This document shows positions 7,873 through 48,765 of a stretch of DNA of 64,000 nucleotides, piece by piece. The notes below the pieces were generated by a model. The model saw only the letters and a list, made by a program, of their open reading frames with translations, made no database searches and was not told where the DNA came from. This stretch comes from Pseudorhodoferax soli (GTDB taxonomy: Bacteria > Pseudomonadota > Gammaproteobacteria > Burkholderiales > Burkholderiaceae_C), in NCBI RefSeq assembly GCF_003337555.1, contig NZ_QPJK01000001.1, positions 744,001-808,000 on the forward strand. Reading direction: 5' to 3'. How positions within the stretch are numbered: the first letter of the stretch is position 1; each line of letters begins with the position of its first letter. The position numbers and the translations under genes are program-made.

Positions 7873-7881
7873 GGCCCTGAC

Positions 7882-32901: not shown

Positions 32902-32977
32902 GCCTCAACGCGGGCGCACCGCCTTCCGGTACAGCCTGGCGGCGCCTGGCGCGGGCCGCGTGGTCGCCGCTGGCGGG

Positions 32978-33826
32978 TCAAAGCGGCACTGCGTGGCCCG
33001 GCTCCTCTCCGCGCAGCTGCCGCTGCGCGATGTCGACGAGAACCCGCGGCAGCTCGTTGATCGATTCCACCACGTGGTGCGCGCCCGCACCGAGGAGCTT
33101 GCTCTTCGCCGCAGCGCGCAAGCGCTCCTGGGAGGCTGCATCCAGCGCCCGCCATGCATCCTGCGTGACACCGACCTCGTTGCCCGACACGCTCAGGCCA
33201 ACGCACCACATGCCGGCGTTGCGCCCTTCCTCGATGCCGGGCGTGGTGTCGTCCACCTTGACGCAGGCGCGCACATCGCCGATGCCCAGCGCCAGCACAT
33301 TGGCCAGCGCCATGAACGGCCCAGGGCGCCCGCCGGCCGGCAGTTCGTCGCCAGCGACCACGTGGTCGGGCGCGATGCCCTGCGCCGCCGCCAGCGGCAG
33401 CAGGACCTCCAGCACCTCGCGCGGATAGCCGGAGCACGAACCGATCTTCAAGCCTTCTGCGCGCAGTTGCTGCAGGACGGCGACGGCACCGGGAATGGGC
33501 TCGGAGTAAGCGCCGACCTTCTGGATCTGCATGGGCATGAAGCGGGCATACAGGGCGTCGATGTCTGCATCGTCTGAAGCACGGCCGAAGCGCGCCTGCC
33601 ATTGGGCCTGTACAGCCGCGTCGGCCAGCAGCTGGCGGATGTGGTCGCGCTTGGACAGGCCCATGGGGCCGCGCGCCTGGGCCAGGCTGACCGCGATGCC
33701 GAAGGTGGCGAAGGCCTCGACGAAGATCTGCGTCGGCGCCAGTGATCCGAAGTCGACCAGCGTGCCGGCCCAGTCGAAGATGACGGCCTGCAGACGGTGG
33801 CCAGCGGGAAGCAAGGAGGAGTTCAT
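32978..33826 (-). CDS. phnX: phosphonoacetaldehyde hydrolase (phosphonatase)
   Basis: PhnX splits phosphonoacetaldehyde into acetaldehyde and phosphate. The 282-residue HAD-superfamily enzyme has the nucleophile Asp18 in IFDWAGTLVDFGS and the Schiff-base Lys59 in GPMGLSKRDHIR, both diagnostic of PhnX rather than generic HAD phosphatases. VDDTTPGIEEG and GLSVSGNEVG complete the site. It is the last gene of the phnD-phnC-phnE-adh-phnX island and its ATG overlaps the adh stop. No phnW transaminase is in the island, so the aldehyde must come from another reaction, probably the neighbouring dehydrogenase. Confidence 0.95.
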   Translation of the reverse strand: MNSSLLPAGHRLQAVIFDWAGTLVDFGSLAPTQIFVEAFATFGIAVSLAQARGPMGLSKRDHIRQLLADAAVQAQWQARFGRASDDADIDALYARFMPMQIQKVGAYSEPIPGAVAVLQQLRAEGLKIGSCSGYPREVLEVLLPLAAAQGIAPDHVVAGDELPAGGRPGPFMALANVLALGIGDVRACVKVDDTTPGIEEGRNAGMWCVGLSVSGNEVGVTQDAWRALDAASQERLRAAAKSKLLGAGAHHVVESINELPRVLVDIAQRQLRGEEPGHAVPL

Positions 33827-34950
33827 GGGAGGGTGGTCTCGGATGGAGCTTGGTGGAGCGCGGCATCGGCCGCGATGAAGTTGCGACCGCGCGGGCCCTG
33901 CAGTGCGTGCGCAACGCGCACATCCCACTCCGCCTCGGCAATGCCGTAGTCGGCCGGTTCGGTGCTGACGCCCAGGCTGCGCAGGAAATCCTCGAGGGCC
34001 GCAACGGCGGCCCCGGCGCTGCCAGCACCGAACACCGAGAGAAGCTGCGCATCGACAGCGGCATCGCGGCCGAAGGCCAGCGCCATCACACGGGGCAGGC
34101 TGAACGAACAGGCAATGCCATGCGCAGTGCCTTGTGCCAGCGTGATGTCGTAGGAGAGCGAGTGCGCCAGCGCCGTGCGGGTGTTGGAGAAGGCGAGCCC
34201 GGCCTGCAGCGCTGCCGTGGCCAGCGTCTCGCGCAGGTCCAGCCGCTGCGGCGCGCGCATGAGTGCCGCAAGCGTCGCCACGATGGCGCGCGCGGCGCTG
34301 ACCGCCAGGGTGGCGGACACCGGGTTGCGGTGCACGTTCCACAAGGCTTCCAACGCGTGCGACAGCGCATCCAGGCCGCTGGCGAGCGTGGCTGCCAGTG
34401 GCAGGCTCGCCATCAGCCGGGCGTCCACGATGGCGGCTTCGGGCCAGGTGCAGTCCAGGTGCAGCGACAACTTGCGGCCGCGCGCCTGGTCCCAGATGGT
34501 GGCCCAGGGCGTGACCTCGCTGCCCGTGCCTGCGGTGGTGGGCAGCGCCAGCAGGGCGCGGTGGCCACCTTGCGCAAGGCCGCGCATGTCGCCTTCCATG
34601 GCCTGCAGCAGTTGGTCGAAGCGCGCGTCGGCGGTGCGCACCAGCATGGCCTTCGCGCAATCGATGGCGCTGCCACCGCCAAGGGCCACGACGCACTCCG
34701 CTTCGGGATGCCTGGCCCACAGGCGTTCGTACATCGGTGCGAGCCAGGCGACATCGGGGTTGGGCCGCACATCGGTTTCCACGGCCACCAGGCGCGCGCC
34801 GAGCACGGCGCGCAGCTGTTCGACCAGGCCCAGCGCGTGTGCCTGCGGGAAGGCAATGAGGATGGCACGGCGCTCACCCAGGAGGGCGGGCAGTTGCTGC
34901 AGGGCGCCGCTGCCGGCATGCACCTTGACGGGATTGTGGTAGTTCCACAT
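33823..34950 (-). CDS. iron-type alcohol dehydrogenase of phosphonate island 1
   Basis: This 375-residue group III (metal-dependent) alcohol dehydrogenase has the NAD-binding VALGGGSAIDCAKAM, PTTAGTGSEVTPWATIWD and metal-ligand regions SGLDALSHALE, RTALAHSLSYD and TAHGIACSF. Close relatives, PhpC and FomC, interconvert phosphonoacetaldehyde and 2-hydroxyethylphosphonate. In this catabolic setting the likely direction is oxidation of 2-hydroxyethylphosphonate to phosphonoacetaldehyde for PhnX (inference). A paralogue sits in island 2 at 44850. The stop overlaps the phnX start. The start at 34950 gives the motif MWNYHNPVKVH also seen in the paralogue as MVHEFHNPVRS. Confidence 0.88.
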   Translation of the reverse strand: MWNYHNPVKVHAGSGALQQLPALLGERRAILIAFPQAHALGLVEQLRAVLGARLVAVETDVRPNPDVAWLAPMYERLWARHPEAECVVALGGGSAIDCAKAMLVRTADARFDQLLQAMEGDMRGLAQGGHRALLALPTTAGTGSEVTPWATIWDQARGRKLSLHLDCTWPEAAIVDARLMASLPLAATLASGLDALSHALEALWNVHRNPVSATLAVSAARAIVATLAALMRAPQRLDLRETLATAALQAGLAFSNTRTALAHSLSYDITLAQGTAHGIACSFSLPRVMALAFGRDAAVDAQLLSVFGAGSAGAAVAALEDFLRSLGVSTEPADYGIAEAEWDVRVAHALQGPRGRNFIAADAALHQAPSETTLP

Positions 34951-35074
34951 GGGGATCGGTTCGGGTGAAAGAAGACTTGGAATGGGTACGCCGCTCCGGC
35001 CTGCGGCACAGGCCGCAGGAAGGAAGGCGCACACGGTGCAGTTGGCGAGGGCGGTGCGGCTGGCGCACCGCCTG

Positions 35075-35902
35075 TCAATGGCGGCCGCTGCTCTGGATGC
35101 GGTGGCGCAGGTGGCTGGAGACCAGGTCGGCCACGACCACCATGGCGGTGATGACGATGATGCAGGTGGCGGTCTGCTCGTAGCGGAACAGCTTGAGGCT
35201 GCTGACGAGCTCGAAGCCCAGTCCGCCGGCGCCGACCATGCCCAGCACGGTGGCCGAACGCAGATTCACTTCGAAGCGGTACAGCACCACCGCGATCCAG
35301 GCCGTCAGCACCTGCGGCAGCACGCCGAACACGACCACCTGCAGCGGCCGCGCGCCCGTGGCACGCAAGGCCTCCAGCGGCCCCTGGTCGATCTCCTCGA
35401 TCGCATCGGCGAAGAACTTGCCCAGCATGCCGGCGCCGTGCACGGCCAGCGCCAGCACACCGGGAAACGGCCCCAGGCCCACCGCCGAGACGAACACCAG
35501 CGCGAGGATCAACTCGTTGATGCTGCGCACCACGTTCAAGGCCTGGCGCGTGCCCTGGTAGATCCAGCGGTTGGACTGCAGGTTGCGTGCCGCCAGGAAG
35601 GACAGCAGCGCGGCGGCGGGGATCGCCAGCAAGGTGCCCCACACCGCGATCTGCACCGTCTCGATGGCCGGCGCGAGCAGGCGGTCGAGGATGCTCCAGT
35701 CCGGCGGCACCGTGCGCGAGGCGAAGTCGGCGATCTGCGGCAGGCCGGCGGCCAGTTCGCCCCAGCTCAGCTGCACGCCAGCGGCGCTCCATTGCAGCGC
35801 CCAGCCCAGGGCGAGCGCTGCGGCGGCCATGCCGATCCAGCCCTTGCCACCCTGCGGCGCCGGGCCGGTCCACAGATAACGGCTGTCAAGCTTGTCGTGC
35901 AT
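35075..35902 (-). CDS. phnE: phosphonate ABC transporter permease, island 1
   Basis: This 275-residue permease has six hydrophobic segments. The EAA-loop region is EALRATGARPLQVVVFGVLPQ, which contacts the ATPase, and NVVRSINELILALVFVSAVG is typical of PhnE. It forms a homodimeric channel with PhnC and receives substrate from PhnD. It follows phnC by two bases. A 124-base gap separates it from the dehydrogenase gene, without a visible terminator. Confidence 0.93.
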   Translation of the reverse strand: MHDKLDSRYLWTGPAPQGGKGWIGMAAAALALGWALQWSAAGVQLSWGELAAGLPQIADFASRTVPPDWSILDRLLAPAIETVQIAVWGTLLAIPAAALLSFLAARNLQSNRWIYQGTRQALNVVRSINELILALVFVSAVGLGPFPGVLALAVHGAGMLGKFFADAIEEIDQGPLEALRATGARPLQVVVFGVLPQVLTAWIAVVLYRFEVNLRSATVLGMVGAGGLGFELVSSLKLFRYEQTATCIIVITAMVVVADLVSSHLRHRIQSSGRH

Positions 35903-35904
35903 GT

Positions 35905-36702
35905 TCAGACTCCCAAGGCCGTTGACAGCGCGACCGGTGCTGCGGGCTGCGCGCGCCCGGTGGACGCACTGTCCACGGGTTGCAGGTAGATCCTGTCGAT
36001 GTCGGCAGCCGTCAGCGCGTCCGGACGGCCATCGAAGACGACACGGCCCTGGGCCAGGCCGACGATGCGGTCGCCGAATTCGCGTGCGTAGTCCACCTGG
36101 TGCAGGTTGCAGACCACCGTGATGCCGAGCGCGCGCGAGGCCTCGCGCAGGTACTGCAACACCGTGCGGGCCGTGTGCGGGTCCAAGCTGGCGACGGGCT
36201 CGTCGGCCAGGATCACGCGCGGCCGTTGCGCCAGCGCGCGGGCGATGCCCACGCGTTGCATCTGGCCACCGGACAGCGCATCGGTGCGCTCGTGTGCCTT
36301 GTGCGCCAGCCCCACACGGGCCAGGCAATCATGGGCCAGCGCGATGTCCTGGCGGCGGAACAGGTGCAGGCACGAGCCCAGCACCGAGACCGAACCCAGG
36401 CGGCCGGTCAGCACATTCTTCAGCGCCGTGAGGCGCGGCACCACGTGGTGGTGCTGGAAGATCATGGCGACCTTGCGCCGCAGTGCGCGTGTGTCGCCGT
36501 ACTGCATCGCGTCGATGCCGTCGATCTGCAGCTCGCCGCTGTCGGCCGTGGCCAGGCGGTTCATGCAGCGCAAGAGGGTCGACTTGCCGGCGCCGGACTG
36601 GCCCAGCACCACCACGAACTCGCCGGCCGCGGCATCCAGGTCCACGCCGCGCAGCACGGCGTTGCTGCCGTAGCGCTTGGTCAGCTGGCGGGTGCGGATC
36701 AC
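35905..36702 (-). CDS. phnC: phosphonate ABC transporter ATPase, island 1
   Basis: This 265-residue ABC ATPase has Walker A GQSGAGKS, Q-loop FQHHHVVPRL, signature LSGGQMQRV, Walker B VILADEP and the H-loop His in CNLHQVDYA. GRLGSVSVLGSC and the H-loop context are PhnC-like. The start is a GTG that overlaps the phnD stop as GTGA, showing translational coupling. The C-terminal ~20 residues are Ala/Pro-rich and dispensable-looking. Confidence 0.94.
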   Translation of the reverse strand: MIRTRQLTKRYGSNAVLRGVDLDAAAGEFVVVLGQSGAGKSTLLRCMNRLATADSGELQIDGIDAMQYGDTRALRRKVAMIFQHHHVVPRLTALKNVLTGRLGSVSVLGSCLHLFRRQDIALAHDCLARVGLAHKAHERTDALSGGQMQRVGIARALAQRPRVILADEPVASLDPHTARTVLQYLREASRALGITVVCNLHQVDYAREFGDRIVGLAQGRVVFDGRPDALTAADIDRIYLQPVDSASTGRAQPAAPVALSTALGV

Positions 36703-37568
36703 TTCATGCTCCGCAGGTCGAGCTTCAGCGTCCTGGCGGTGTCGCGCACCACGTTGTAGGCGGCGTCGTTCGTGGGCTGGAAGCCGTTCAGCACACCCTG
36801 GTCGCCCCAGGGCAGGTCTTTCACCTGGGCCAGCGCCTTGGCCACTTTCTCCTTCATGGCGGGGTCCAGGTCCTTGCGCCAGACCATCGGCGACTCGGGG
36901 ATGGGGCTGGACGACCAGACGATCTGCAGATCTTCCTGCTTGACCGTGCCCTTGGCGATGGCCGATGCCAGGATGCGGTCGGCCACGGCGGCGGCGTCGA
37001 CTTTCTTGTTGGCCACGGCCAGGATGCTGGCATCGTGCGATCCGGAGAAGATCACGCGGCCGAAGGTGCGCTCGGGGTCGAAGCCTGCCTGCAGCAGCCC
37101 GGCCTTGGGGAACAGGTGCCCGGAGGCGGAGGTGGGATCGACGAAGGCGAAGCTGCGGCCCTTGAGGTCCGCGGGCGTGCCCAGGCCGCTGTCCTTGCGC
37201 GCGATGATCACGCTGCGGTAGGCGCTCTGGCCCGTCTTCTTCGTCACCGCGACGGAGAAGGCCTCGACATCGGCGATGGAACTGGCCATCACGTACGAGA
37301 ACGGGCCGAGGTAGGCCACGTCCAGCTTCTTGGCGCGCAATGCCTCGATCACGCCGTTGTAGTCGGTGGCGACGAAGGCCTTGACGGGCACCCCGATCTG
37401 CTGCTGCAGGCTGTCGAGCACCTGCCGGCTGCTCTCGATCATGGCCTGCGAGTCCTCGGCCGGAATCAGGCCGATGGTCAGGGGCTGTGCGGCGGCCGCG
37501 GGCAGCGCGCACAGCGGCAGCGCCAGGGCAAGCAGGGCGCGGCGCAGGGGAAAGAAGCGTTGGGTCAT
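36699..37568 (-). CDS. phnD: phosphonate ABC transporter substrate-binding protein, island 1
   Basis: This 289-residue periplasmic binding protein has a signal peptide ending PAAAA-Q. The core shows LTIGLIPAEDSQAM, TDYNGVIEALRAKKLDVAYLGPFSY and the phosphonate-contact FVDPTSASGHLFP with a Ser-Gly-His loop, all typical of PhnD. It is the first gene of the island and reads away from the divergent lysR at 37644. About 60-70 per cent of residues appear shared with the island 2 copy by eye, so the two binding proteins may prefer related but distinct phosphonates. Confidence 0.95.
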   Translation of the reverse strand: MTQRFFPLRRALLALALPLCALPAAAAQPLTIGLIPAEDSQAMIESSRQVLDSLQQQIGVPVKAFVATDYNGVIEALRAKKLDVAYLGPFSYVMASSIADVEAFSVAVTKKTGQSAYRSVIIARKDSGLGTPADLKGRSFAFVDPTSASGHLFPKAGLLQAGFDPERTFGRVIFSGSHDASILAVANKKVDAAAVADRILASAIAKGTVKQEDLQIVWSSSPIPESPMVWRKDLDPAMKEKVAKALAQVKDLPWGDQGVLNGFQPTNDAAYNVVRDTARTLKLDLRSMK

Positions 37569-37643
37569 GGGAATCTCGCAGCGGGGTGGGGGGATGGCCG
37601 CAAGATTACGAAGCCGATGTGACAACGCCATATCAGGACGATC

Positions 37644-38546
37644 ATGAATCCGTCATCGTCCCATCGTAAAAACCTATGGATGTCAGCCATCCAGATCCGC
37701 GCCTTCATGGCCGTTGCCCAGCACCGCAGCTTCAGCGCCGCAGCGCGCGCCTTGGGCCTGAGCCAGCCGACCTTGACCGCGCAGGTGCAGCAGCTCGAAC
37801 GCCGCCACGCGGTGCAGTTGTTCCTGCGCCGCGGGCATGGTGTCGAACTGACCGACGTGGGGCAGCGCCTGCTGCCACTGGCGCGGCAGCTGGGCGCGCT
37901 GGAGGTCGAGGCGTACAACCTGCTGCACGACAACGGGCAGTTGAACGCCGGTCACCTGAAGCTGGGCGCCGTCGGGCCCTTCCACGTGATCGAGATGGTG
38001 GACGCCTACCGCAAGCGCTATCCGCGCATCGAACTGTCGATCCGGCTGGGCAACTCCACCAGCGTGTTCCGCGACCTGCAGGACTACACGATCGACCTGG
38101 GTGTGCTGGCCCGCTTCCACGAGCCACCCGGTTTCACGGCGATCCCGTATGCGCGGCATGCCATCGTGCTCAGCGTGCAGGCGGGGCATCCGTTCGCCGA
38201 GCGCCGCGAGATCCGCATCGAGGAGCTCGAGAACATGCCGCTGCTGCAGCGCGAAAGCGGCTCCAGCACCCGGCGCGCGATCGAGGCTGCGCTGCGGCAA
38301 GCGGGCGTCAAGCCCAAGGTGGCCATGGAAATCGGCAGCCGAGAAGCCCTGCGCGAGGCATCCATCCGGGGCATGGGCATCGGCACGGTGTCAGAGGCGG
38401 AGTTCATCCCCGACGAGCGCTTGCGCCTGGTGCGCATCGAGGGCGATCCTGCCTTTACGGAGACCTGTCTCTACTGCCTGGACGAGCGACGGGGCAGCCC
38501 GCTGCTGATGTCGTTCATCGACGTGGCGAAAGGCCTGCGCGCGTAG
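37644..38546 (+). CDS. LysR-family regulator of phosphonate island 1
   Basis: This 300-residue LysR regulator has the winged helix-turn-helix RSFSAAARALGLSQPTLTAQ near the N-terminus and the effector domain from about residue 95 (KLGAVGPFHVIEMV). It resembles the other regulator at 40062 and the CysB/Cbl-like group more than the typical short-wing LysR type. AGGA precedes ATG 37644; a second ATG at 37680 would give the more usual short N-terminus but has no ribosome site. It is divergent from phnD with 75 bases between, so it very likely controls that island. Confidence 0.9.
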   Translation: MNPSSSHRKNLWMSAIQIRAFMAVAQHRSFSAAARALGLSQPTLTAQVQQLERRHAVQLFLRRGHGVELTDVGQRLLPLARQLGALEVEAYNLLHDNGQLNAGHLKLGAVGPFHVIEMVDAYRKRYPRIELSIRLGNSTSVFRDLQDYTIDLGVLARFHEPPGFTAIPYARHAIVLSVQAGHPFAERREIRIEELENMPLLQRESGSSTRRAIEAALRQAGVKPKVAMEIGSREALREASIRGMGIGTVSEAEFIPDERLRLVRIEGDPAFTETCLYCLDERRGSPLLMSFIDVAKGLRA

Positions 38547-38833
38547 CTGTCGCGGAGCGTCGGCCCCGGTGCCAGGCATCCGACCGAATCCCGCGCATGC
38601 TCCTGACGACGGCGGGCTCGGGCATCATGGTGCCATTGACGCACCGGGCGGCGGGAACCTCCCCGTCATCTTCGGCAGCGGCGACGTGACCATGGGCAAC
38701 CGGTGGAAGGCCGGGGCCGCGATGCGCGCACCCTCGGGTTGCTGTCGTCGCCACCGTCGGCATGGCCGGTGCGAGCGCATCGGCATGTGGCGAAGCCACC
38801 GCCGGCACGGTCCATTTTCTCAGGGAACATTCG
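38547..38833. other. 287-base intergenic region between lysR1 and ldhA
   Basis: I see no credible gene, terminator or RNA here. Open frames crossing it are GC-driven and lack ribosome sites or family motifs. A CAGGGAACATTCG just before ATG 38834 supplies the ldhA ribosome-binding site. The region separates the two phosphonate islands from the ldhA-like gene in between. Confidence 0.5.
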
Positions 38834-39832
38834 ATGAAAACAGCCGTCTTCAGTGCGCGCCGGTACGACCAGGCCCTGTTCGCCAAGGCGAATGCGCAGG
38901 CCGGCCATGAACTGGTCTTCTTCCAGGACCGGCTGACACCCGAGACGGCCAGGCAGGCTGCCGGCTGCCCGGCCGTCTGCGTGTTCGTCAACGACCAGGT
39001 CGACGCGCAGGTGCTGGGCCTGCTTGCTGCCCAGGGCACGCGCCTGGTCGCCACGCGGTCGACCGGCTTCAACCACATCGATGCAGCCGCGGCTGCGGCC
39101 GTCGGCATCGCGGTCGTGCGCGTCACCGACTACTCGCCGCACTCGGTGGCCGAGTTCGCCGTCGGCTTGCTGCTGGCCCTCAACCGCAGGATCGCACGGG
39201 CCAGCATGCGCACGCGCGAGGGCAACTTCGAGTTAGACGGGCTGATGGGCTTCGACCTGCACGGCAAGACCGTGGGCGTGATCGGCACCGGCAAGATCGG
39301 CAGCATCTTCGCGCGCATCATGCTGGGCTTCGGCTGCACGGTGCTGGGACACGACATGGACCCCAAACCCGCCTTCGAGCAGATGGGCGGGCGGTACGTC
39401 GGTGTGGCAGAACTGGTGGCCGCATCCCACGTGGTCTCGCTGCACTGCCCGCTCACGGACGCGACGCGGCACATCGTCGACGCCAAGCTGCTGGCCAGCA
39501 CGAGGCGCGGCGCCATCCTCGTGAACACCAGCCGCGGCGCGCTGGTGGACACCGACGCGGCCATCCAGGCGTTGAAGACGGGCCAGCTCGGCGGGCTGGC
39601 CATCGACGTCTACGAGCAGGAGGCCAGCCTGTTCTTCCAGGATCTCTCGTCCACCATCATCACGGACGACGTGATCCAGCGCCTGGTCTCGTTTCCCAAT
39701 GTGATCGTGACGGGCCACCAGGCCTTCCTGACCGAAGAGGCCATCGGCCAGATCGTCCAGACGACGCTGGAGAGCATCACAGCGTTCGAACGTGGCACCG
39801 CGCTGTTGAACCGGATCCCCGCAACGCCGTAG
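38834..39832 (+). CDS. ldhA: fermentative-type D-lactate dehydrogenase
   Basis: This 332-residue NAD-dependent 2-hydroxyacid dehydrogenase closely tracks LdhA: CVFVNDQVD, VRVTDYSPHSVAEFAVG, the Rossmann GVIGTGKIG, VSLHCPLT, VNTSRGALVD with the substrate Arg, and VTGHQAFLTEEA with the catalytic His. It reduces pyruvate to D-lactate. It stands alone between the two phosphonate islands without overlap, and no obvious link to phosphonate metabolism can be shown. The acetaldehyde or acetate made by the islands is not its usual substrate. Confidence 0.9.
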   Translation: MKTAVFSARRYDQALFAKANAQAGHELVFFQDRLTPETARQAAGCPAVCVFVNDQVDAQVLGLLAAQGTRLVATRSTGFNHIDAAAAAAVGIAVVRVTDYSPHSVAEFAVGLLLALNRRIARASMRTREGNFELDGLMGFDLHGKTVGVIGTGKIGSIFARIMLGFGCTVLGHDMDPKPAFEQMGGRYVGVAELVAASHVVSLHCPLTDATRHIVDAKLLASTRRGAILVNTSRGALVDTDAAIQALKTGQLGGLAIDVYEQEASLFFQDLSSTIITDDVIQRLVSFPNVIVTGHQAFLTEEAIGQIVQTTLESITAFERGTALLNRIPATP

Positions 39833-40061
39833 AAGCGCTCTGCGTGGCGCATGTGGGCACTTTCCTGCCGCAAGCGCCCTGGATCGTTCAAGGTGTCGGG
39901 GGACCAGCGACACACACGCGAAGAAGACTTCGGTCCGCAACGGTTCATTGCGACCGGCGGCCGGCCGGCCGCGCCTGCGCGCGCGCGTGCGCTTGGGCCA
40001 TCGGGCTCGGGCCGGCTCCACGCCTGCGATGTGTTCGGCGCGTCGGCCGGCGCAGCGCCAG

Positions 40062-40925
40062 CTAGCTGTCTTTGCCGATGACCTGGAAGAAAGCGCGCAC
40101 CAGGCGCGTGTCGCGCCGCTCGGCCAGGCAGACCACGTGTGCGTAGGTGCGCACCTGTGCATCGCTGATGCGAACCGCGTGCAGGCCGGCCCCGGGCACG
40201 TACTCGACCTCTGACACGGCACCCACGCCCACGCCCTGGACGACGGCCTCGCGAATGATTTCGCGGCTGGCCACTTCCATGACCACGTCGGGCTGCACAT
40301 TGGCCGCCTTCAGTGCTGCCTCGATGGCGCGTCGGGTGGTCGAGCCTTGCTCACGCAAGATCAGCCTCTCGCCTTGCAGTTCTGCCGTGCGGATGCTGCG
40401 GCGCCGTGCGAACCGGTGCGAGGCACTGCAGAAGATCACGACGGGGTGTTCGCTGTAAGGCACGGACACGAAGCGCTTGTCCTGCAGCACCTGGGCAAGA
40501 ACGCCAACGTCGGCCGAATAGTCCAGCAGCCGGTCCAGCACCTCCTGCGAGTTGCCCGTGGTGACGGAGATCTTCACCCCGGAGTACCGCTGGTTGAACC
40601 CGACCAGCATGCGCGTGACGTGCGATGGCCCCACGGCAGCCACACGCAGGTGCCCCGTGCGCAGCTCACCGGCGTCCTGCAGCACCTGGACCGCCTCCTG
40701 CTCCAGGCCAAAGATCTGGCGCGAAAGCTGGAAGAGGCGCTCGCCGATCTCCGTCGGCCGAATCCGCCGTCCCGCACGATGGAACAGCTCGACTTTGTAG
40801 AGCTGTTCGAGCTGCGCGACCTGCGTTGTCACGGTGGGTTGACTGACGTGCAGTGCCTGGGCTGCACGGGTGAAGCTGCCTTCCGAGGCAACGGCATGAA
40901 AGGACCGCAGCTGTGTCAGGCGCAT
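40062..40925 (-). CDS. LysR-family regulator of phosphonate island 2
   Basis: This 287-residue LysR protein has the N-terminal domain MRLTQLRSFHAVASEGSFT with recognition helix LHVSQPTVTTQVAQLE and the effector domain starting around residue 90 (HLRVAAVGPSHVTRML). It is related to the island 1 regulator (both have RRAIEAAL and GVGVGAVSE or GMGIGTVSE). It is divergent from phnD2 across 177 bases. A perfect palindrome ATTTG-C-CAAAT at 40993-41003 could be part of its binding site. Phosphonate-responsive control is inferred from position. Confidence 0.9.
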   Translation of the reverse strand: MRLTQLRSFHAVASEGSFTRAAQALHVSQPTVTTQVAQLEQLYKVELFHRAGRRIRPTEIGERLFQLSRQIFGLEQEAVQVLQDAGELRTGHLRVAAVGPSHVTRMLVGFNQRYSGVKISVTTGNSQEVLDRLLDYSADVGVLAQVLQDKRFVSVPYSEHPVVIFCSASHRFARRRSIRTAELQGERLILREQGSTTRRAIEAALKAANVQPDVVMEVASREIIREAVVQGVGVGAVSEVEYVPGAGLHAVRISDAQVRTYAHVVCLAERRDTRLVRAFFQVIGKDS

Positions 40926-41102
40926 GCATTTCCCCTTGGTGTTATCCCAGGTGAACTATAGGTCTGATCAATGAAACGGTGGAAAAACTTGAATTTGCCA
41001 AATAGGTTGCCGGCGCCGAAAGTTGCGCCACGGGCCCTGCAGGCAAGCAGGCCGTACCCCGGTCAGAGCAGCGACACAGCCGCACCCCACACAGGAGACA
41101 AC
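40926..41102. promoter_or_regulatory. divergent control region of phosphonate island 2
   Basis: This 177-base region is AT-richer than its surroundings. It contains the 11-base palindrome ATTTGCCAAAT at 40993-41003 and a CTATAGGTCTGATCAAT stretch with LysR-like T-N11-A spacing nearer the regulator. CAGGAGACAAC just before ATG 41103 is a strong ribosome site. I cannot identify -35/-10 boxes with confidence. Confidence 0.4.
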
Positions 41103-41978
41103 ATGCCATTGACTCGCCGATCCCTCATTGCCAGCGCCCCGGCGCTGGCACTGCCCATGGCCGGCCTCGCTCCGCCAGCCCATGCCGCCAAGCCACTGAC
41201 GGTGGGCCTCATTCCGTCGGAGGACTCGCGCGCCATGATCGCCAACAGCCAGGCCATGATGGACATGCTGTCCAAGGCGCTGGACATGCCGGTCAAGCCG
41301 TTCGTCGCTGCGGACTACAACGGCGTGATCGAGGCGCTGCGCTCGCGCCGCCTCGACGTCGCCTATCTCGGCCCGTTCTCGTATGTGCTCGGGGCCACGG
41401 TGGCGGAGATCGAGGCCTTTGCCGTGGCGGAGACCAAGAGGGCGGGCCGCACGTCCTACCACTCGCTGGTCGTGGCGCACAAGGACAGCGGCATCAAGAC
41501 AGTGGCCGACCTGAAAGGCCGCACCTTCGCCTTCGTGGACCCCACCTCCACATCGGGCCACCTGTTCCCCAAGGCCGGGCTCATGAAGGCAGGCTTCAAC
41601 CCCGACAAGGATTTCGGCCGCGTGATCTTCTCGGGTTCGCACGACTCCAATGCGGTGGCGGTGCAGAACAAGAAGATCGACGCGGTGGCCATCGCCGACC
41701 GCATCCTGGACGCGGCCATCGCCAAGGGCCTGGCCAGGCGCGAGGACCTGGTGGTGGTCTGGAAGTCCGAACCCATTCCCGAGTCCCCCACCGTCTGGCG
41801 CAAGGACCTGGACCCCGAGCTCAAGAAGCGCGTGCAGGCCGCCTTCCTGCAGGTCAAGGACATTCCCTGGTCCGACCAGGGCATGTTGAACGGCTTCCAT
41901 CCGACCAACGACGCGGCCTACCAGGTGATCCGCGACACGGCCAAGCTGCTGAACCTCGACCTGAGGGCCATGAAATGA
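41103..41978 (+). CDS. phnD: phosphonate ABC transporter substrate-binding protein, island 2
   Basis: This 291-residue binding protein has a signal of the Tat-like form (MPLTRRSLIASAPALAL..., with RRSL) ending PAHA-A, unlike the Sec-type signal of the island 1 copy. The core repeats LTVGLIPSEDSRAM, ADYNGVIEALRSRRLDVAYL and FVDPTSTSGHLFPKAG. It captures phosphonate in the periplasm and delivers it to PhnE. The stop overlaps the phnC2 start as ATGA. Confidence 0.95.
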   Translation: MPLTRRSLIASAPALALPMAGLAPPAHAAKPLTVGLIPSEDSRAMIANSQAMMDMLSKALDMPVKPFVAADYNGVIEALRSRRLDVAYLGPFSYVLGATVAEIEAFAVAETKRAGRTSYHSLVVAHKDSGIKTVADLKGRTFAFVDPTSTSGHLFPKAGLMKAGFNPDKDFGRVIFSGSHDSNAVAVQNKKIDAVAIADRILDAAIAKGLARREDLVVVWKSEPIPESPTVWRKDLDPELKKRVQAAFLQVKDIPWSDQGMLNGFHPTNDAAYQVIRDTAKLLNLDLRAMK

Positions 41979-42781
41979 TCCGGATTCGGGGCCTCGACAA
42001 GCGCTACGGCAACTTCGACGCGCTCAAGAACATTGACCTGGACGTGGCACCTGGCGAGTTCCTCGTCGTGCTGGGCCCGTCCGGCGCCGGCAAGTCCACC
42101 CTGCTGCGCTGCATCAACCGGCTGGCCGAGCCCAGTGGTGGCGACATCCACATCGACGGGAAGCTCGCCAAGTCCGATGGAGCCAGCCTGCGCCAGCTGC
42201 GCCGGCAGGTCGCCATGATCTTCCAGCACTACAACGTGGTGCCACGCCTGTCGGTGCAGAAGAACGTGCTGACCGGCCGCCTGGGGGCCATGCCGGCGGT
42301 GCTGTCGTGGCTGCAGCTGTTTCCGCGCGCCGACCTGGAGATCGCCCGCGAATGCCTGCGCCGCGTGGAGTTGCAGGACAAGGCCGAGCTGCGCACGGAC
42401 ACCTTGTCGGGCGGCCAGAAGCAGCGGGTGGGCATTGCCCGCGCACTGGCCCAGCAACCCAAGATCATCCTGGCCGACGAGCCAGTCGCGAGCCTGGATC
42501 CCAAGACCTCGCGGACGGTCCTGAACTACCTCAGACAGGCCAGCCGCGAGCTGGGCATCACCGTGGTCTGCAACCTGCACCAGATCGACTACGCCCGCGA
42601 GTTCGGCGAGCGCATCGTCGGTGTCTCGGGCGGCCGCATCGTCTTCGAGGGCGGCCCGCAGGCGCTGACCGACGATGTGCTCAAGCGCATCTACCCGGGC
42701 TTGGACGAGGGCGAGCGCCGCCCCGCCCCGCCCACCCCCGCAGCCCCCGCGCTGCACCACATGGAACTGCAGGAGGCATGA
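41975..42781 (+). CDS. phnC: phosphonate ABC transporter ATPase, island 2
   Basis: This 268-residue ATPase has Walker A GPSGAGKS, Q-loop FQHYNVVPRL, signature LSGGQKQRV, Walker B IILADEP and CNLHQIDYA. It is the closest counterpart of the island 1 PhnC. A Pro-rich C-terminal tail (PAPPTPAAPALHH) is specific to this copy. Its stop overlaps phnE2 by four bases. Confidence 0.95.
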   Translation: MIRIRGLDKRYGNFDALKNIDLDVAPGEFLVVLGPSGAGKSTLLRCINRLAEPSGGDIHIDGKLAKSDGASLRQLRRQVAMIFQHYNVVPRLSVQKNVLTGRLGAMPAVLSWLQLFPRADLEIARECLRRVELQDKAELRTDTLSGGQKQRVGIARALAQQPKIILADEPVASLDPKTSRTVLNYLRQASRELGITVVCNLHQIDYAREFGERIVGVSGGRIVFEGGPQALTDDVLKRIYPGLDEGERRPAPPTPAAPALHHMELQEA

Positions 42782-43599
42782 GCATGAACATCGGTTCCTA
42801 CACCTTGCTGGTGGCACGGCCGTCCGGCAACGCAGGCTGGTTGCCACGCCTGGGGCTGGGCGCCCTGGCCGTTGCCGTGCTCTGGTGGGCCGCACGCGGC
42901 AGCCAGGTGAGCTTCGGCGAACTGGCCAAGGGCTTGCCTTGGATCGGCGACTTCCTGGCACGCATGACGCCGCCCAACTGGGCCTTCCTGGACAAGCTCG
43001 TCGTGCCGGCCATCGAGACGGTGCAGATCGCGATCTGGGGCACGCTGCTGGCCGTCATCCTGGCGGTGCCGGTGTGCTTCTTCGCGGCCCGCAATCTGAC
43101 GCCCAACGTCGTCGTCTACCAGTTCACGCGCCAGGTGTTCAACGTCACACGCGGCATCAACGAGATCATCCTCGCGCTGGTCTTCGTGGCGGCTGTGGGC
43201 CTGGGACCGTTTCCGGGCGTGCTGGCTCTCGCCATCCACGGGGCCGGCATGCTGGGCAAGTTCTTCTCCGAGTCGATCGAGGAGATCGACCAGGGGCCGA
43301 TCGAGGCGCTGCGCGCCACTGGCGCCGGGCCGATCCAGACCATCATCTTCGGCGTCTTGCCGCAAGTCGTGACCGCCTGGATCGCCGTCGTGCTGTACCG
43401 CTTCGAGACGAATCTGCGCCAGGCCACCGTGCTGGGCATGGTGGGCGCCGGCGGCATCGGCTTCGAGCTGGTCGGCAGCATGAAGCTGTTCCAGTACCGC
43501 GACACCGCCACCTGCATCCTCGTGATCATCGCCATGGTGATGGTTGCGGATTACATCTCGACCCGGCTGCGTGCCTGGATCCAACAAGGAGCCCATTGA
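42778..43599 (+). CDS. phnE: phosphonate ABC transporter permease, island 2
   Basis: This 273-residue permease with six hydrophobic segments and the EAA loop EALRATGAGPIQTIIFGVLPQ is clearly homologous to the island 1 PhnE. ATG 42778 with GGAGG just upstream is used; a second ATG follows two codons later. The stop TGA is followed with no gap by the phnA start codon, so permease and hydrolase genes are tightly linked. Confidence 0.94.
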   Translation: MSMNIGSYTLLVARPSGNAGWLPRLGLGALAVAVLWWAARGSQVSFGELAKGLPWIGDFLARMTPPNWAFLDKLVVPAIETVQIAIWGTLLAVILAVPVCFFAARNLTPNVVVYQFTRQVFNVTRGINEIILALVFVAAVGLGPFPGVLALAIHGAGMLGKFFSESIEEIDQGPIEALRATGAGPIQTIIFGVLPQVVTAWIAVVLYRFETNLRQATVLGMVGAGGIGFELVGSMKLFQYRDTATCILVIIAMVMVADYISTRLRAWIQQGAH

Positions 43600-44847
<1,248 letters not shown>

Positions 44848-44849
44848 AC

Positions 44850-45947
44850 ATGGTCCACGAATTCCACAACCCCGTGCGCAGTGTCTACGGGGCGGGGGCC
44901 CTGTCGTCCCTGCCCAAGCTGCTCGACGGCCGCCGTGCCACGCTGGTGGTCTTTCCGGAGGCGCGCCAACTCGGCTTGCTCGACCGGCTGCAGGCGCTGC
45001 TCGGCGAGAGCCTCGCCGGCACCATCGACGATGTGCGGCCGAACCCCGATGTCGCCGAACTGAAGGCCTTGTACGAAACGTTCTGGCGCGATCCCGCTGC
45101 CGGAGAGGTGCTGGTCGCGGTCGGCGGCGGCAGCGCCATCGACACGGCCAAGGCCTTGATGGTGGGCACCCAAGGTGGCGGCTTCGACGAACTGGTGCGC
45201 GCGCTGGCCGCGGGCAAGGGCTTCGTCCCTGCGCGGTGCAAGACGCTGATCGCCGTGCCGACCACCGCTGGCACCGGCAGTGAGGTGACGCCCTGGGCCA
45301 CGGTGTGGGACCGCGCCGCGCAGAAGAAATACTCGCTGCACCTGCCGCAGACCTGGCCCGCCATCGCGCTGATCGACCCCGATCTGATGCTGTCGCTGCC
45401 GGCCTCCGTCACGCTGCAGAGCGGCCTTGACGCGCTGTCGCACGCTCTGGAGTCCATCTGGAACGTCAATGCCAACCCGCTGTCGGACACCTTCGCGGTC
45501 GCGGCGGTGCACGACATCCTGGATGCTCTGCCAAAGCTGATGGCGCGCCTGGACGACAAGGGCTTGCGCGGCCGCATGGCGCTGGCCGCGCTGAAGGCCG
45601 GCATGGCCTTCTCCAACACGCGCACGGCCTTGGCGCATTCGATCTCCTACGAAATGACGCTGCGCTATGGCCTGCCGCATGGCATCGCGTGCTCGTTCCC
45701 CCTGCCCATGGTGCTGGAGCGTGCGATCGGCCGCGACGCGGGGCGCGACGCCGTGCTGGCACAGGCCCTGGGCCCGCTCGATCACGCCGTGCAGCGCCTG
45801 TCCGGCTTCATCGAGCGGCTGGGCGTGAAGACGCGCTTTGCAGACTACGGCGTGGACCACGAGCAGGCCGAGCAGATGGTCGCCTACGCGCTGGCCGGAG
45901 CCCGGGGCAAGAACTTCATCGGAACTGCATTGCAGGAGGCAGCATGA
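44850..45947 (+). CDS. iron-type alcohol dehydrogenase of phosphonate island 2
   Basis: This 365-residue paralogue of the island 1 dehydrogenase has VAVGGGSAIDTAKAL, PTTAGTGSEVTPWATVWD, SGLDALSHALES, RTALAHSISYEM and LPHGIACSF. In the order phnA-adh-phnY it would supply phosphonoacetaldehyde to PhnY, most simply by oxidising 2-hydroxyethylphosphonate (inference from the known PhpC/FomC reaction in reverse). It starts two bases after phnA and overlaps phnY by four. An alternative is that it reduces surplus aldehyde for protection. Confidence 0.88.
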   Translation: MVHEFHNPVRSVYGAGALSSLPKLLDGRRATLVVFPEARQLGLLDRLQALLGESLAGTIDDVRPNPDVAELKALYETFWRDPAAGEVLVAVGGGSAIDTAKALMVGTQGGGFDELVRALAAGKGFVPARCKTLIAVPTTAGTGSEVTPWATVWDRAAQKKYSLHLPQTWPAIALIDPDLMLSLPASVTLQSGLDALSHALESIWNVNANPLSDTFAVAAVHDILDALPKLMARLDDKGLRGRMALAALKAGMAFSNTRTALAHSISYEMTLRYGLPHGIACSFPLPMVLERAIGRDAGRDAVLAQALGPLDHAVQRLSGFIERLGVKTRFADYGVDHEQAEQMVAYALAGARGKNFIGTALQEAA

Positions 45948-47389
45948 GCACAGTGTTGGAGAACACGAACTTCCGGGCGGAGGCGCTGCGGATCGGTGGC
46001 GAGAAGCTGCGCACGGCCCGCACCCTGGACGTCTACAACCCCTACTCGGGCGAGCGTGTCGGCGCGGTGGCCATGGCGGGCATCGGCGAGGTGCGCCGCG
46101 CCATGGACATCGCCCAGGCCTACAAGCCCACGCTGTCGCGGTACGAGCGCTCCGCCATCCTGAACCGCGCTGCCGCGTTGCTGCGCGAGCGCATGGAGGA
46201 AGCCTCCGACCTGATCACCGCCGAGTCCGGCCTGTGCAAGAAGGACAGTCTCTACGAGATCGGCCGTGTTGCCGACGTGCTGAACTTCGGCGCCAACGAA
46301 GCCCTGCGCGACGACGGACAGGTGTTCTCTTGCGATCTCACGCCGCATGGCAAGAAGCGCAAGGTCATCACCATGCGCGAGCCGCTGCTGGGCGTCATCA
46401 CCGCCATCACGCCGTTCAACCACCCGATGAACCAGGTGGCGCACAAGGTCGTGCCCTCCGTGGCCACCAACAACCGCATGGTGCTCAAGCCCTCGGAGAA
46501 GGTGCCGCTGTCGGCCTACTACTTCGCCGACCTGCTCTACGAAGCAGGGCTGCCGCCTGAGATGCTGCAGGTGGTGTCGGGCGATCCAGCCGAGATCGCC
46601 GACGAATTGCTGACGCACCGGCACGTCGATCTCGTCACCTTCACCGGTGGGGTGTCCATCGGCAAGTACATCGCCGCCAAGGCCGGCTACCGGCGCATGG
46701 TGCTCGAACTGGGCGGCAACGACCCGCTGATCGTGATGGACGATGCCGACCTGGACAAGGCGAGCGACCTGGCGGTGCAAGGTTCCTACAAGAACTCCGG
46801 ACAGCGCTGCACGGCGGTCAAGCGCATGCTGGTGCACCACAAGGTGCTCGGCGAGTTCACCGAGCGCGTGCTGGCCAAGACCCTGGCCTGGCGCCACGGA
46901 GATCCCGCGGACCGCAGCAACGACATGGGCACCGTGATCGACGCAGCGGCTGCGCGCCACTTTGAGAAGGTGGTCAACGAGGCCGTGGCACAAGGGGCGC
47001 GCTTGTTGACAGGCAATGTGCGAGCAGGAGCGCTGTACGCGCCCACCGTACTTGACCGTGTGCGACCGGAGATGGCGGTGGTGCGCGAGGAGACCTTCGG
47101 CCCGGTCTCACCGATCATCGGCTTCCAGGACATCGACGAGGCCATCCGAATCTCCAATGGCACCGCCTACGGACTGTCCTCGGGCGTCTGTACGAACCGG
47201 CTGGACGATGTGACACGCTTCGCCCGCGAACTGCAAGTGGGCACCGTGAACCTGTGGGAAGTTCCCGGCTACCGCATCGAGCTCACGCCGTTTGGCGGCA
47301 TCAAGGACTCGGGGCTGGGCTACAAGGAAGGTGTCCAGGAAGCGATCAAGTCGTTCACGAACTGCAAGACGTTCACGTTGCCCTGGTAA
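45944..47389 (+). CDS. phnY: phosphonoacetaldehyde dehydrogenase
   Basis: This 481-residue NAD(P)-dependent aldehyde dehydrogenase has the general base Glu255 in LELGGND and the catalytic Cys289 in NSGQRCTA. EETFGPVSPIIG and ELTPFGGIKDSG are also seen. Together with the directly linked phnA, these features identify it as PhnY, which oxidises phosphonoacetaldehyde to phosphonoacetate. It is the last gene of island 2. The 298 bases downstream carry no terminator I can recognise before the ssrA terminator on the other strand. Confidence 0.92.
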   Translation: MSTVLENTNFRAEALRIGGEKLRTARTLDVYNPYSGERVGAVAMAGIGEVRRAMDIAQAYKPTLSRYERSAILNRAAALLRERMEEASDLITAESGLCKKDSLYEIGRVADVLNFGANEALRDDGQVFSCDLTPHGKKRKVITMREPLLGVITAITPFNHPMNQVAHKVVPSVATNNRMVLKPSEKVPLSAYYFADLLYEAGLPPEMLQVVSGDPAEIADELLTHRHVDLVTFTGGVSIGKYIAAKAGYRRMVLELGGNDPLIVMDDADLDKASDLAVQGSYKNSGQRCTAVKRMLVHHKVLGEFTERVLAKTLAWRHGDPADRSNDMGTVIDAAAARHFEKVVNEAVAQGARLLTGNVRAGALYAPTVLDRVRPEMAVVREETFGPVSPIIGFQDIDEAIRISNGTAYGLSSGVCTNRLDDVTRFARELQVGTVNLWEVPGYRIELTPFGGIKDSGLGYKEGVQEAIKSFTNCKTFTLPW

Positions 47390-47644
47390 GGAGAAGCGCT
47401 TCGCCGGACGGAGCAGCGCGGACCGGCAAGCGCACCCAAGGTCGGCGCCCGGGCCCGCCTCCATCGGGTAGTTCGGCATGTCCGCGGGTTTTCGACACGG
47501 AAAAAAGGCTCGCGGAACGCGCGCAGTGGTGGTCCGTGGCGCAGCACTGACGTTGATGCAGTCTTGGCCCGCCCTGGCTGCGGCGCTAGCGCTGGCTGCT
47601 GGCGCCGCGCCTGTCCGAGAACCTGCTTGGTGACCGGCCAAATA
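47390..47644. other. intergenic region downstream of phnY
   Basis: This stretch contains no gene I can support. A short frame at 47556-47633 (MQSWPALAAALALAAGAAPV...) resembles a signal peptide but has no ribosome site. No transcription terminator for phnY is visible on the plus strand apart from the hairpin at 47645-47679, which also ends with a short T-run on the plus strand and may serve both directions. Confidence 0.5.
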
Positions 47645-47679
47645 AAAAGGCGTTCACCGGATCCCGGTGAACGCCTTTT
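47645..47679 (-). terminator. intrinsic terminator after ssrA
   Basis: AAAAGGCGTTCACCGG and CCGGTGAACGCCTTTT form a 16-bp inverted repeat with a three-base loop. On the minus strand it is followed by TTTTTATTTGG, and it starts nine bases past the 3' CCA of tmRNA. On the plus strand it ends in CTTTT, so it may also stop phnY transcripts. Confidence 0.9.
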
Positions 47680-47687
47680 GGGTGGTG

Positions 47688-48074
47688 TGGTGGAGCTGGG
47701 GGGATTTGAACCCCCGTCCGCAAGCCATCTTCGCGCAGATCTACATGTTTAGCGGTCTGTTTTGAGTCTCGCTTCCTGTGTCGCGCAGCCGCACGCTACA
47801 CAGGACGCCAGTACCCTATTTTCTCGCCCCTGACCAAGGTACCCGGTCCGGAGCCAGCCGATGAAATTATCTTTACAGCCGGGAGCGCTCAACTTGCGTC
47901 AAGAACCCCTTGCCCAGCCCATCGGCCTGCTGTTGTAAAGCTCACTGGCAATTAAGCAGCGAGTGCGAAACGTTCGTCGTTTGCAGTTAGTTTGTTTGAA
48001 TCTGTTTAACGAGCGCATTCAGCTCGACATGCACCACAGCGATTCCGAACCCACGTCGAAACCAATGCAGCCCC
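47688..48074 (-). ncRNA. ssrA: transfer-messenger RNA
   Basis: The 387-nt RNA rescues stalled ribosomes by trans-translation with SmpB. The 5' end GGGGCTG pairs with CAGCTCC before the encoded 3' CCA. The T-arm is visible in GGACGGGGGTTCAAATCCCC. The resume codon at 47984-47982 starts the tag GCA-AAC-GAC-GAA-CGT-TTC-GCA-CTC-GCT-GCT-TAA, ANDERFALAA, ending at 47952. It is the one-piece form. The 5' end lies only seven bases beyond the gph stop, so its promoter overlaps the end of gph. Confidence 0.97.
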
Positions 48075-48081
48075 AGAACAG

Positions 48082-48765
48082 CTATTTTAGGCTACTTGGC
48101 GCGATTGCAAGATCCAGCACGGACAACAAGCCCAAAGGCGCATTGATGGATGCGTCTGCGCCCCATTCGGCGGTGTCTACCTGACCGAGGTAGCCGTAGC
48201 AGGCCGCCACTGTCAGCATGCCGGCCGCGCGGCCTGCCACGATGTCGCGCGCATCGTCGCCCACGTACATGCAGCTTGCCGGATCGACCTCCAGAACACA
48301 GGCGGCGTGCAGCAGAGGCTCCGGGTGCGGCTTGGTGTAAGCCGTTGTGTCGCCGCTGACGAGCACCCCACTGCTGGCAAACAGCGCCATGCCGGCGGTC
48401 AGCGGCCGGGAGAAGCGCGAGGGCTTGTTCGTGACAACGCCCCAGCGCAAACCCCGCACGCGCAACTCCTCGACCAGGGTGGCGACGCCGTCGAAAGGCC
48501 GCGTGAGTTCCGTCAGCCGGCGTTCATAGTTCTGAAAGAACTCCTCACGCAAGAGCGGAAAGTCCGGATGGTCTGTCGCCATGCCGAAGGCCACCCCCAA
48601 CATGCCGCGCGCACCGGCGCCCGCCATCGCGCGGTAGGCCTCCAGTCCGAGCGCGGGCAGGCCTCGGTCCGTACGCAACTGATCCGCTGCCGCGCCCAGG
48701 TCGCCCGCACTGTCGACCAACGTGCCATCCAGGTCGAACAGCACGGCTTTGAGTTCACGCGCCAT
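48082..48765 (-). CDS. gph: phosphoglycolate phosphatase (HAD superfamily)
   Basis: This 227-residue HAD phosphatase has the nucleophile motif [18 protein letters not shown] and the acidic [12 protein letters not shown]. In betaproteobacteria the gene pairs with ubiG, as here, with 11 bases of overlap. It removes phosphate from 2-phosphoglycolate formed during DNA repair. Substrate assignment rests on context and length. Its 3' end contains the ssrA promoter. Confidence 0.9.
48084..48110 (-). promoter_or_regulatory. ssrA promoter overlapping the gph stop
   Basis: On the minus strand TTGCAA (48105-48110) and TAAAAT (48084-48089) are 15 bases apart and the RNA 5' end follows ten bases later. 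The first base of the -10 overlap zone is the third position of the gph stop codon (48082-48084). Spacing is shorter than the ideal 17, so the precise -35 is uncertain. Confidence 0.6.

Follow-up and report, generated by a model that had tools for sequence, protein, structure and literature searches.

A predicted 2-hydroxyethylphosphonate dehydrogenase may take the place of PhnW in two phosphonate islands of Pseudorhodoferax soli

Routes into phosphonoacetaldehyde and the anatomy of the two islands

The closest described relatives of the system analyzed here are the two hydrolytic routes of 2-aminoethylphosphonate (2-AEP) degradation, PhnW-PhnX and PhnW-PhnY-PhnA. The stretch under study (hereafter the window) comprises 64,000 nucleotides of Pseudorhodoferax soli (assembly GCF_003337555.1, contig NZ_QPJK01000001.1, positions 744,001 to 808,000) and holds two phosphonate islands, which share with these routes the phosphonoacetaldehyde node, the hydrolases, the dehydrogenase, the LysR control and the importer, but which carry an iron-type alcohol dehydrogenase (ADH, gene adh) instead of PhnW and a binding protein PhnD without the carboxylates for the 2-AEP amine. 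An analogous logic is known from isethionate catabolism, in which an alcohol dehydrogenase yields sulfoacetaldehyde that then meets several fates; that route concerns a sulfonate and not a phosphonate, and we claim no common descent. PhpC, the phosphonoacetaldehyde reductase of phosphonate biosynthesis, performs the same chemistry in reverse, the comparison here being one of chemistry. In contrast to PhpC, the window adh genes stand in degradative operons and oxidation is predicted for them; moreover, the genome has no phosphoenolpyruvate (PEP) mutase over the cut-off, which also sets it apart from biosynthesis of 2-hydroxyethylphosphonate (HEP) through PepM, a decarboxylase and PhpC. Accessory routes into phosphonoacetaldehyde have been described for PbfA, PbfB/C/D and PbfF (PMC8154272, PMC10590968, PMC12366243; these and all other papers cited are represented by excerpts of their text). 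These routes, too, use additional enzymes to channel other natural phosphonates to PhnX or PhnYA; in those excerpts the enzymes act on amino-phosphonates within 2-AEP clusters, whereas the window islands have no PhnW and a predicted non-amino substrate. Finally, carbon-phosphorus (C-P) lyase uses HEP and releases ethylene (PMC5649143), that is, the same predicted phosphorus source is reached by other enzymes and with a gas product, and its PhnJ is absent here.

Island 1 has the gene order phnD-phnC-phnE-adh-phnX and island 2 the order phnD-phnC-phnE-phnA-adh-phnY, each with a divergent lysR. The missing PhnW is the most informative point about them. Neither island has one, and the best match in the genome (8.16 Mb in 30 contigs, listed as 100% complete with 4.22% contamination) reaches 74.4 bits against a cut-off of 400.8; the same model, taken as a control, exceeds its cut-off in 56 of 299 genomes of the family. 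PEP mutase reaches at best 117.8 bits in the genome (cut-off 319.55), with no control genome over the cut-off either, and PhnJ of C-P lyase gave no match in the genome, the E. coli positive control being detected. Because neither PhnW nor PEP mutase is over its cut-off and PhnJ is absent, the iron-type ADH is the only candidate inside the islands for forming phosphonoacetaldehyde.

A third phosphonate island was seen on another contig (C8; locus L059, G000:C8:289500-308500, positions 2477-10041). It holds a second phnX, an aminoethylphosphonate-type binding protein (TIGR03261), a flavin adenine dinucleotide (FAD) oxidase (TIGR03364) and a regulator that looks GntR-like by eye, and no adh of the TIGR03405 family lies nearby. 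This island is probably the entry for 2-AEP or N-methyl-AEP; since amino-phosphonates would enter there, the window islands should obtain phosphonoacetaldehyde by another enzyme.

According to the reading that we favour, and in which we have fair confidence, each island is a self-contained operon that imports one non-amino phosphonate, most likely HEP, and releases its phosphate by hydrolysis. PhnDCE would import HEP, as suggested by the altered PhnD cap described below, and the iron-type ADH would oxidize it with NAD(P)+ to phosphonoacetaldehyde in PhnW's place. In island 1, PhnX would then cleave phosphonoacetaldehyde to acetaldehyde and phosphate, while in island 2, PhnY would oxidize it to phosphonoacetate, which PhnA would cleave to acetate and phosphate. 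Oxidation of the alcohol is unfavourable and would be drawn forward by the hydrolytic step, and the two LysR proteins, probably binding the same box, would control the islands. One adh family ahead of both fates points to one shared substrate.

The enzyme assignments on which this pathway draws are well matched. A first-pass annotation had described two complete islands, with acetaldehyde as the product of one and acetate of the other, and both statements hold: all genes are open frames in the claimed order, the outer coordinates 32978-37568 and 41103-47389 coincide exactly with reading frames, the family cut-offs are mostly passed, and family membership assigns PhnX to island 1 and PhnY followed by PhnA to island 2. 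We regard the PhnX, PhnY and PhnA reactions, assigned by family, as established. All four kinds of catabolic enzyme (PhnX, adh, PhnA and PhnY) score above their NCBIfam cut-offs, and both window adh enzymes exceed that of TIGR03405, which NCBIfam names PsrA. In phnX1, two residues align with Bacillus cereus PhnX (2iof), the nucleophile Asp in DWAGT and the Schiff-base Lys in PMGLSK, and the SGQRC motif of phnY aligns with 4i3t. The metal site of adh is complete, with D194, H198, H263 and H277, presumably the metal ligands, invariant in 17 of 17 aligned proteins. Near this site, the adh family has Tyr (Y267) where methanol dehydrogenase 8zwd has His, and Cys (C281) where it has Asn; these residues are possible marks of phosphonate specificity. 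PhnD1 falls 0.2 bits short of TIGR03431 (260.9 bits, cut-off 261.1), and both PhnDs pass the wider subfamily TIGR01098. Both LysR proteins lie under the cut-off of TIGR03339 (phn_lysR, phosphonate-associated LysR), though it is the top family for each. Neighbouring genes mostly abut or overlap, as in an operon (phnC1, with a GTG start, overlaps the phnD1 stop); phnE1 and adh1 are 124 bases apart.

The PhnD cap and the neighbourhoods of other adh copies

In E. coli PhnD, the cap consists of Asp205, Thr14 and Glu177, and the amine of 2-AEP donates hydrogen bonds to Asp205 and Glu177 (Bisson et al. 2017, PMC5700983). We located these positions in PhnD2 by counting along its phmmer alignment with 3p7i, at a constant offset of 9 that also puts Ser127-Ser129 and His157 on matching motifs, and transferred them to the other proteins by MAFFT. 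At Asp205, Thr14 and Glu177, PhnD2 has Ser, Ser and Arg, and PhnD1 has Ser, Ala and Arg. The PhnD relatives from adh loci were divided at 55% identity into a close set (47, window pair included) and a distant set (10). Throughout the close set, Asp205 is replaced by Ser and His157 is retained (47/47 each); Glu177 gives way to Arg in 45 and to Pro in 2 (L073, L079), and Thr14 to Ser in 43 and to Ala in 4. The distant PhnDs from the same loci retain Asp in 9/10, Thr in 9/10 and Glu in 7/10. Without these carboxylates, window-type importers are not built for an amine and cannot bind one in the manner of E. coli PhnD, and the Arg and Ser in both window PhnDs speak for one ligand. The two features of a canonical PhnW-dependent 2-AEP island, phnW and an AEP-type PhnD cap, are both missing from the window islands.

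We surveyed 299 genomes of the same family with TIGR03405 and found it over the cut-off in 19 (this one included), in 22 copies. For annotation, the family loci examined (20 copies of other genomes plus G133 and G161, two relatives under the cut-off) were compared with the window proteins by BLASTP. Eight other genomes share the island 1 arrangement (G018, G015, G128, G219, G022, G288, G289, G079), and G215 has it without phnX nearby; the island 2 arrangement recurs in six (G187, G085, G201, G134, G042, G215), with another ATP-binding cassette (ABC) set between lysR and phnD in G201. Both complete islands together, a combination that the first-pass annotation had proposed to look for, were found in this genome alone among the 299; the island-2-type and island-1-type operons of G215 lie on different contigs. 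A scan of public genomes gave 571 confirmed candidates; the public loci used are the best 80 of these by likeness to a single adh of the major facilitator superfamily (MFS) type, and 57 of the 80 are titled Pseudomonas. In many of them, an MFS protein replaces or accompanies the ABC importer, with PgtP- and GlpT-like top families below cut-offs.

Together, 102 adh copies outside the window were counted, L060 being left out of count and tree as the same locus as L094. Among them, an ABC or MFS importer is joined to PhnX or to PhnA/PhnY in all four combinations. With the window included (104 rows), PhnX goes with MFS in 27, with ABC and MFS in 26 and with ABC in 12; PhnA/PhnY goes with MFS in 15 and with ABC in 7; the remainder has another importer (5), both fates (2) or no fate gene seen (10). 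A small unit, adh-mfs-lysR-phnX, occurs in Pseudomonas (L120). The family sample also bears on PhnW. It contains 59 PhnX and 56 PhnW copies over cut-offs; within 10 kb of the PhnX copies lie adh in 10, PhnW in 13, both in none and neither in 36. No PhnW lies within 20 kb of any of the 22 adh copies, although it is present elsewhere in 7 of the 19 genomes with adh. A class-wide sample, with adh over the cut-off in merely 2 of 369 genomes, is for that reason uninformative on the exclusion between adh and PhnW.

The adh tree (104 proteins, quick method, Shimodaira-Hasegawa-like approximate likelihood ratio support, SH-aLRT) places each window enzyme in a starred set: that of adh1 has 13 rows, of which 11 have PhnX and 2 lack a fate gene, and that of adh2 has 8 rows, with PhnA/PhnY in 7 and PhnX in 1. 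PhnX partners are found in the adh1 set and in a large Pseudomonas group that is itself nested among rows with MFS and with PhnA/PhnY. The minimum number of fate changes is 4 as labelled; leaving open L144_9001, labelled X only through the neighbouring island, lowers it to 3, and leaving open L068 as well lowers it to 2; rows with none or both fates were not counted as changes. It seems that adh keeps its place while the fate module is swapped, which fits a step making the shared intermediate. The company of adh with phnX, in island 1 and at many Pseudomonas loci, could also mean that it is an ordinary ethanol dehydrogenase clearing the acetaldehyde that PhnX forms. However, acetaldehyde is the product of only one fate, so the swapping does not suit this role; the same adh family stands in PhnA/PhnY operons, island 2 among them, which yield acetate and not acetaldehyde, and the islands would be left without an entry step. 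We consider acetaldehyde disposal very improbable.

Several observations weigh against the HEP pathway. HEP as the substrate was deduced by exclusion, and the Arg in place of Glu177 might also suit a ligand bearing a carboxylate, e.g., phosphonoacetate. PbfA, PbfB, PbfD and other phosphonoacetaldehyde-forming enzymes lie outside the searches made. Six distant PhnDs (L068, L069, L070, L074, L080, L081) stand in adh loci without a close PhnD; the amine-binding cap is whole in four (L068, L074, L080, L081) and partial in L069 and L070, where Asp and Thr are retained and Glu is replaced by His, and an FAD oxidase is present at three of these loci (L068, L074, L080). These three are also the FAD oxidase neighbours within 7.5 kb among all 102 adh copies, and PhnW lies within the same distance of another three (L118, L119, L173); a second phnX is present at L119 and L173, and the PhnW of L118 lies on the other strand together with a different importer. 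L080 and L081, counted among the 102 copies, score under the TIGR03405 cut-off, against which the 80 public copies are unscored. The 10 of 104 rows without a fate gene lack PhnX, PhnA and PhnY within 7.5 kb, some because of contig ends. In the family sample, PhnW is near 0 of the 10 PhnX copies that have adh nearby and near 13 of the 49 others, a difference not significant alone (Fisher p 0.098).

On the first two of these grounds, the imported compound may be another phosphonate that an ADH can convert to phosphonoacetaldehyde, or phosphonoacetate or phosphonoacetaldehyde itself with adh as an accessory, the Arg of the cap possibly pairing with a carboxylate. However, island 1 shares this cap and yet holds PhnX, and phosphonoacetate would make adh and PhnY superfluous and would offer no substrate to PhnX; as for phosphonoacetaldehyde, we know of no stable natural supply. 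A cargo of this kind seems to us distinctly unlikely.

The nearby PhnW and FAD oxidase copies could supply phosphonoacetaldehyde, and the cellular equilibrium of alcohol dehydrogenases favours the alcohol. The iron-type ADH might thus run in the reducing direction like PhpC, turning phosphonoacetaldehyde into HEP, either to recycle 2-AEP into a different phosphonate or as a safety valve for the reactive aldehyde. In the excerpt of Lockwood et al. 2022 (PMC9381506), phpC of catabolic operons is read in this way, as making HEP from 2-AEP. Three points stand against it: the islands have no recognised source of phosphonoacetaldehyde, in a genome without PhnW or PEP mutase over the cut-off; the FAD oxidase of the C8 island, the only further source detected, has its own phnX and no adh of the TIGR03405 family nearby; and an importer without the amine-binding cap is not built for 2-AEP. 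We judge reduction to be unlikely. Extending the favoured oxidation of HEP beyond this genome, we lean slightly towards a dedicated hydrolytic HEP pathway (PhnDCE or a GlpT/PgtP-like MFS protein, iron-type HEP dehydrogenase, and PhnX or PhnY plus PhnA) that would be spread through Burkholderiales and Pseudomonas and would yield phosphate without C-P lyase or ethylene, with Ser/Arg-cap PhnDCE serving HEP uptake.

Some single loci deserve mention in their own right. Five adh loci without a fate gene were inspected by eye, and no C-P-cleaving partner was recognised. In Pseudomonas sp. GD04091 (L136), a frame that is HD-domain-like by eye (10171-11274) follows an ABC-adh operon without nearby phnX, phnA or phnY; this frame may encode a further fate enzyme or be a bystander. 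Pseudomonas arcuscaelestis (L113, 9001-14649) has adh, MFS, lysR, phnX and a distant phnA in one run; this phnA is 46% identical to the window's and over the PhnA cut-off, and no close phnY lies in that stretch.

Control regions of the islands

Each island has its own LysR gene. The first-pass annotation had placed them at 37644 and 40062; the latter position stands, while lysR1 probably starts at 37680, as judged from its alignment with lysR2. Between lysR and phnD of each island lies an operator-like box, CCATAG-N7-CGATGG in island 1 and CTATAG-N7-CAATGA in island 2. The common pattern, YYATAG-N9-ATRR, matches only these two intergenic regions in the 64 kb (0.13 matches expected), and none of 100 shuffles gave two matches. 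A similar pattern occurs in 27 of the 40 regions of island-1 type, Pseudomonas among them, and in 5 of the 6 of island-2 type, compared with about 0.2% of letter shuffles; these counts are neither blind nor independent, because the pattern was drafted after viewing some regions and many regions are close relatives. The box does not mark these regulators in general: none of 20 divergent lysR-adh regions, almost all belonging to the MFS type, contains it. As a second element, the half-site GTCACR was found in 32 of the 40 island-1-type regions (8% in shuffles) and in none of the 6 island-2-type regions; it is part of GTCACRTGAC in 24 regions and of the full CTGTCACRTGACAG in 15, and the window has the half-site alone. 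In the ABC-type Pseudomonas lysR-phnD regions (among L102-L171), this palindrome CTGTCACRTGACAG, full in 15/40, is followed by a -10-like sequence.

The box common to both control regions makes cross-talk likely, both LysR proteins probably reading one box, and the restriction of GTCACR to island-1-type regions suggests an extra input there. The separate regulation proposed earlier is thus upheld in that each island has its own LysR and only island 1 the half-site, and is weakened by the shared box. This also bears on the idea, put forward in the same annotation, that the two islands serve two different, related phosphonates through separately inducible branches. Two importers, two regulators and two fates would suit it, as would the uneven distribution of GTCACR; on the other side stand the amine-excluding cap, with Arg and Ser at both amine positions in both PhnDs, the box that the two control regions share and the rest of the 64 kb lacks, and the single adh family that precedes both fates. 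We find a division of labour between two phosphonates improbable and return to one shared substrate, most likely HEP.

Pho boxes were scored over 14 positions against what we take to be the consensus. The island 1 region scores 11/14 (2 of 200 shuffles as good) and the island 2 region 9/14 (86 of 200); some of the 12 island-1-type regions scored are at shuffle level (L144, L072).

Origin of the block, other features and significance

The islands had been called paralogous. This applies as an old split, not as a recent one: between the islands, identity is 65% for PhnD, 66% for PhnC, 67% for PhnE, 53% for adh and 46% for LysR, whereas each island is 71-89% identical to its best counterparts among the examined loci of other genomes. 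A recent tandem duplication was ruled out, each island being nearer to counterparts elsewhere. The islands thus appear to be old, separate lineages that now stand in one 14.7 kb block (Table 1). A back-to-back arrangement was also seen in Herbaspirillum autotrophicum (L144, 2254-11660), where an island-1-type operon adjoins an MFS-type adh unit, lysR beside lysR; that unit is lysR-adh-mfs, cut by the contig end, and differs from the window in the second island.

Five congeners (G666, G253, G175, G069, G665) were compared at the slot of the block. In G666, yihY is directly followed by ssrA, without the 14.7 kb (about 32,902 to 47,637); in G253, the block and yihY are both absent; in G175 and G069, there are 5 to 6 kb of other DNA with genes that look regulator- and sensor-like by eye; and in G665, no similarity to the block was found in the 19.5 kb compared. 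An adh over the cut-off is absent genome-wide from G069, G175 and G253 (G665 and G666 were outside that search). Since the contents differ among congeners, the slot beside ssrA is by this comparison a variable-cargo site. An integrase-made island at ssrA was rejected: there is no integrase among the named block genes, and flanking attachment repeats were not found. Between 32501-33100 and 47381-48100 there is no direct repeat of at least 14 bases and one of 13 bases (32537, 47570), which was taken as chance.

The one ldhA-like gene between the islands, already noted in the first-pass annotation, is probably an ordinary fermentative D-lactate dehydrogenase and a bystander. A part in the pathway (e.g., as a PbfF-like racemase) was set aside, the protein being closest to fermentative LdhA of P. 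aeruginosa. LdhA relatives occur in only three of the 22 family loci (L069, L070, L077), at 30% identity, and none over 90 bits was found in the 80 public loci.

Table 1. Features of the phosphonate block and its right-hand neighbour, in window coordinates
Feature	Position	Strand	Evidence
Block with both islands	32902..47637	.	Absent from same slot in congener G666
phnX1, phosphonoacetaldehyde hydrolase (HAD family)	32978..33826	-	TIGR01422 335.2 bits, cut-off 220
adh1, iron-type alcohol dehydrogenase, predicted HEP dehydrogenase	33823..34950	-	TIGR03405 455.7 bits, cut-off 423.7
phnE1, ABC permease	35075..35902	-	TIGR01097 300.7 bits, cut-off 216.7
phnC1, ABC ATPase	35905..36702	-	TIGR02315 303.2 bits, cut-off 266.1
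phnD1, periplasmic phosphonate-binding protein without AEP amine-binding carboxylates	36699..37568	-	Cap residues
Operator-like box, island 1	37661..37679	-	One of two matches in 64 kb
lysR1, divergent LysR-type regulator (probable start)	37680..38546	+	Best family TIGR03339 295.2 bits, cut-off 341.1
ldhA-like, probable fermentative D-lactate dehydrogenase	38834..39832	+	Best PDB match P. aeruginosa LdhA 5z20, E 9.5e-115
lysR2, divergent LysR-type regulator	40062..40925	-	Best family TIGR03339 310.4 bits, cut-off 341.1
Operator-like box, island 2	40956..40974	+	Other of two matches in 64 kb
phnD2, periplasmic phosphonate-binding protein, altered cap like phnD1	41103..41978	+	TIGR03431 266.9 bits, cut-off 261.1; TIGR01098 passed
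phnC2, ABC ATPase	41975..42781	+	TIGR02315 324.3 bits, cut-off 266.1
phnE2, ABC permease	42778..43599	+	TIGR01097 305.8 bits, cut-off 216.7
phnA, phosphonoacetate hydrolase	43600..44847	+	TIGR02335 632.5 bits, cut-off 407.55; 1ei6 E 5.6e-184
adh2, iron-type alcohol dehydrogenase, predicted HEP dehydrogenase	44850..45947	+	TIGR03405 526.3 bits, cut-off 423.7
phnY, phosphonoacetaldehyde dehydrogenase	45944..47389	+	TIGR03250 865.8 bits, cut-off 635.65
ssrA (transfer-messenger RNA), right-hand neighbour of block	47688..48074	-	RF00023 185.4 bits

No paper that we found names an enzyme as HEP dehydrogenase or a hydrolytic route dedicated to HEP, which is weak evidence of novelty, as the literature covered was that under open licence. 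HEP is a residue of the plant regulator ethephon, a point for which the literature search found no support. It has been described as a natural phosphonate of dissolved organic matter (PMC9381506), and the excerpt of the 2025 PbfF paper states that HEP oxidation would feed the hydrolytic routes directly, although this was rated less likely for PbfF itself (PMC12366243). The island anatomy argues for HEP oxidation, the opposite of the direction read in the excerpt of PMC9381506. If true, this would suggest the cargo of Ser/Arg-cap PhnDCE importers and would alter which genes surveys count as those of HEP producers or consumers.

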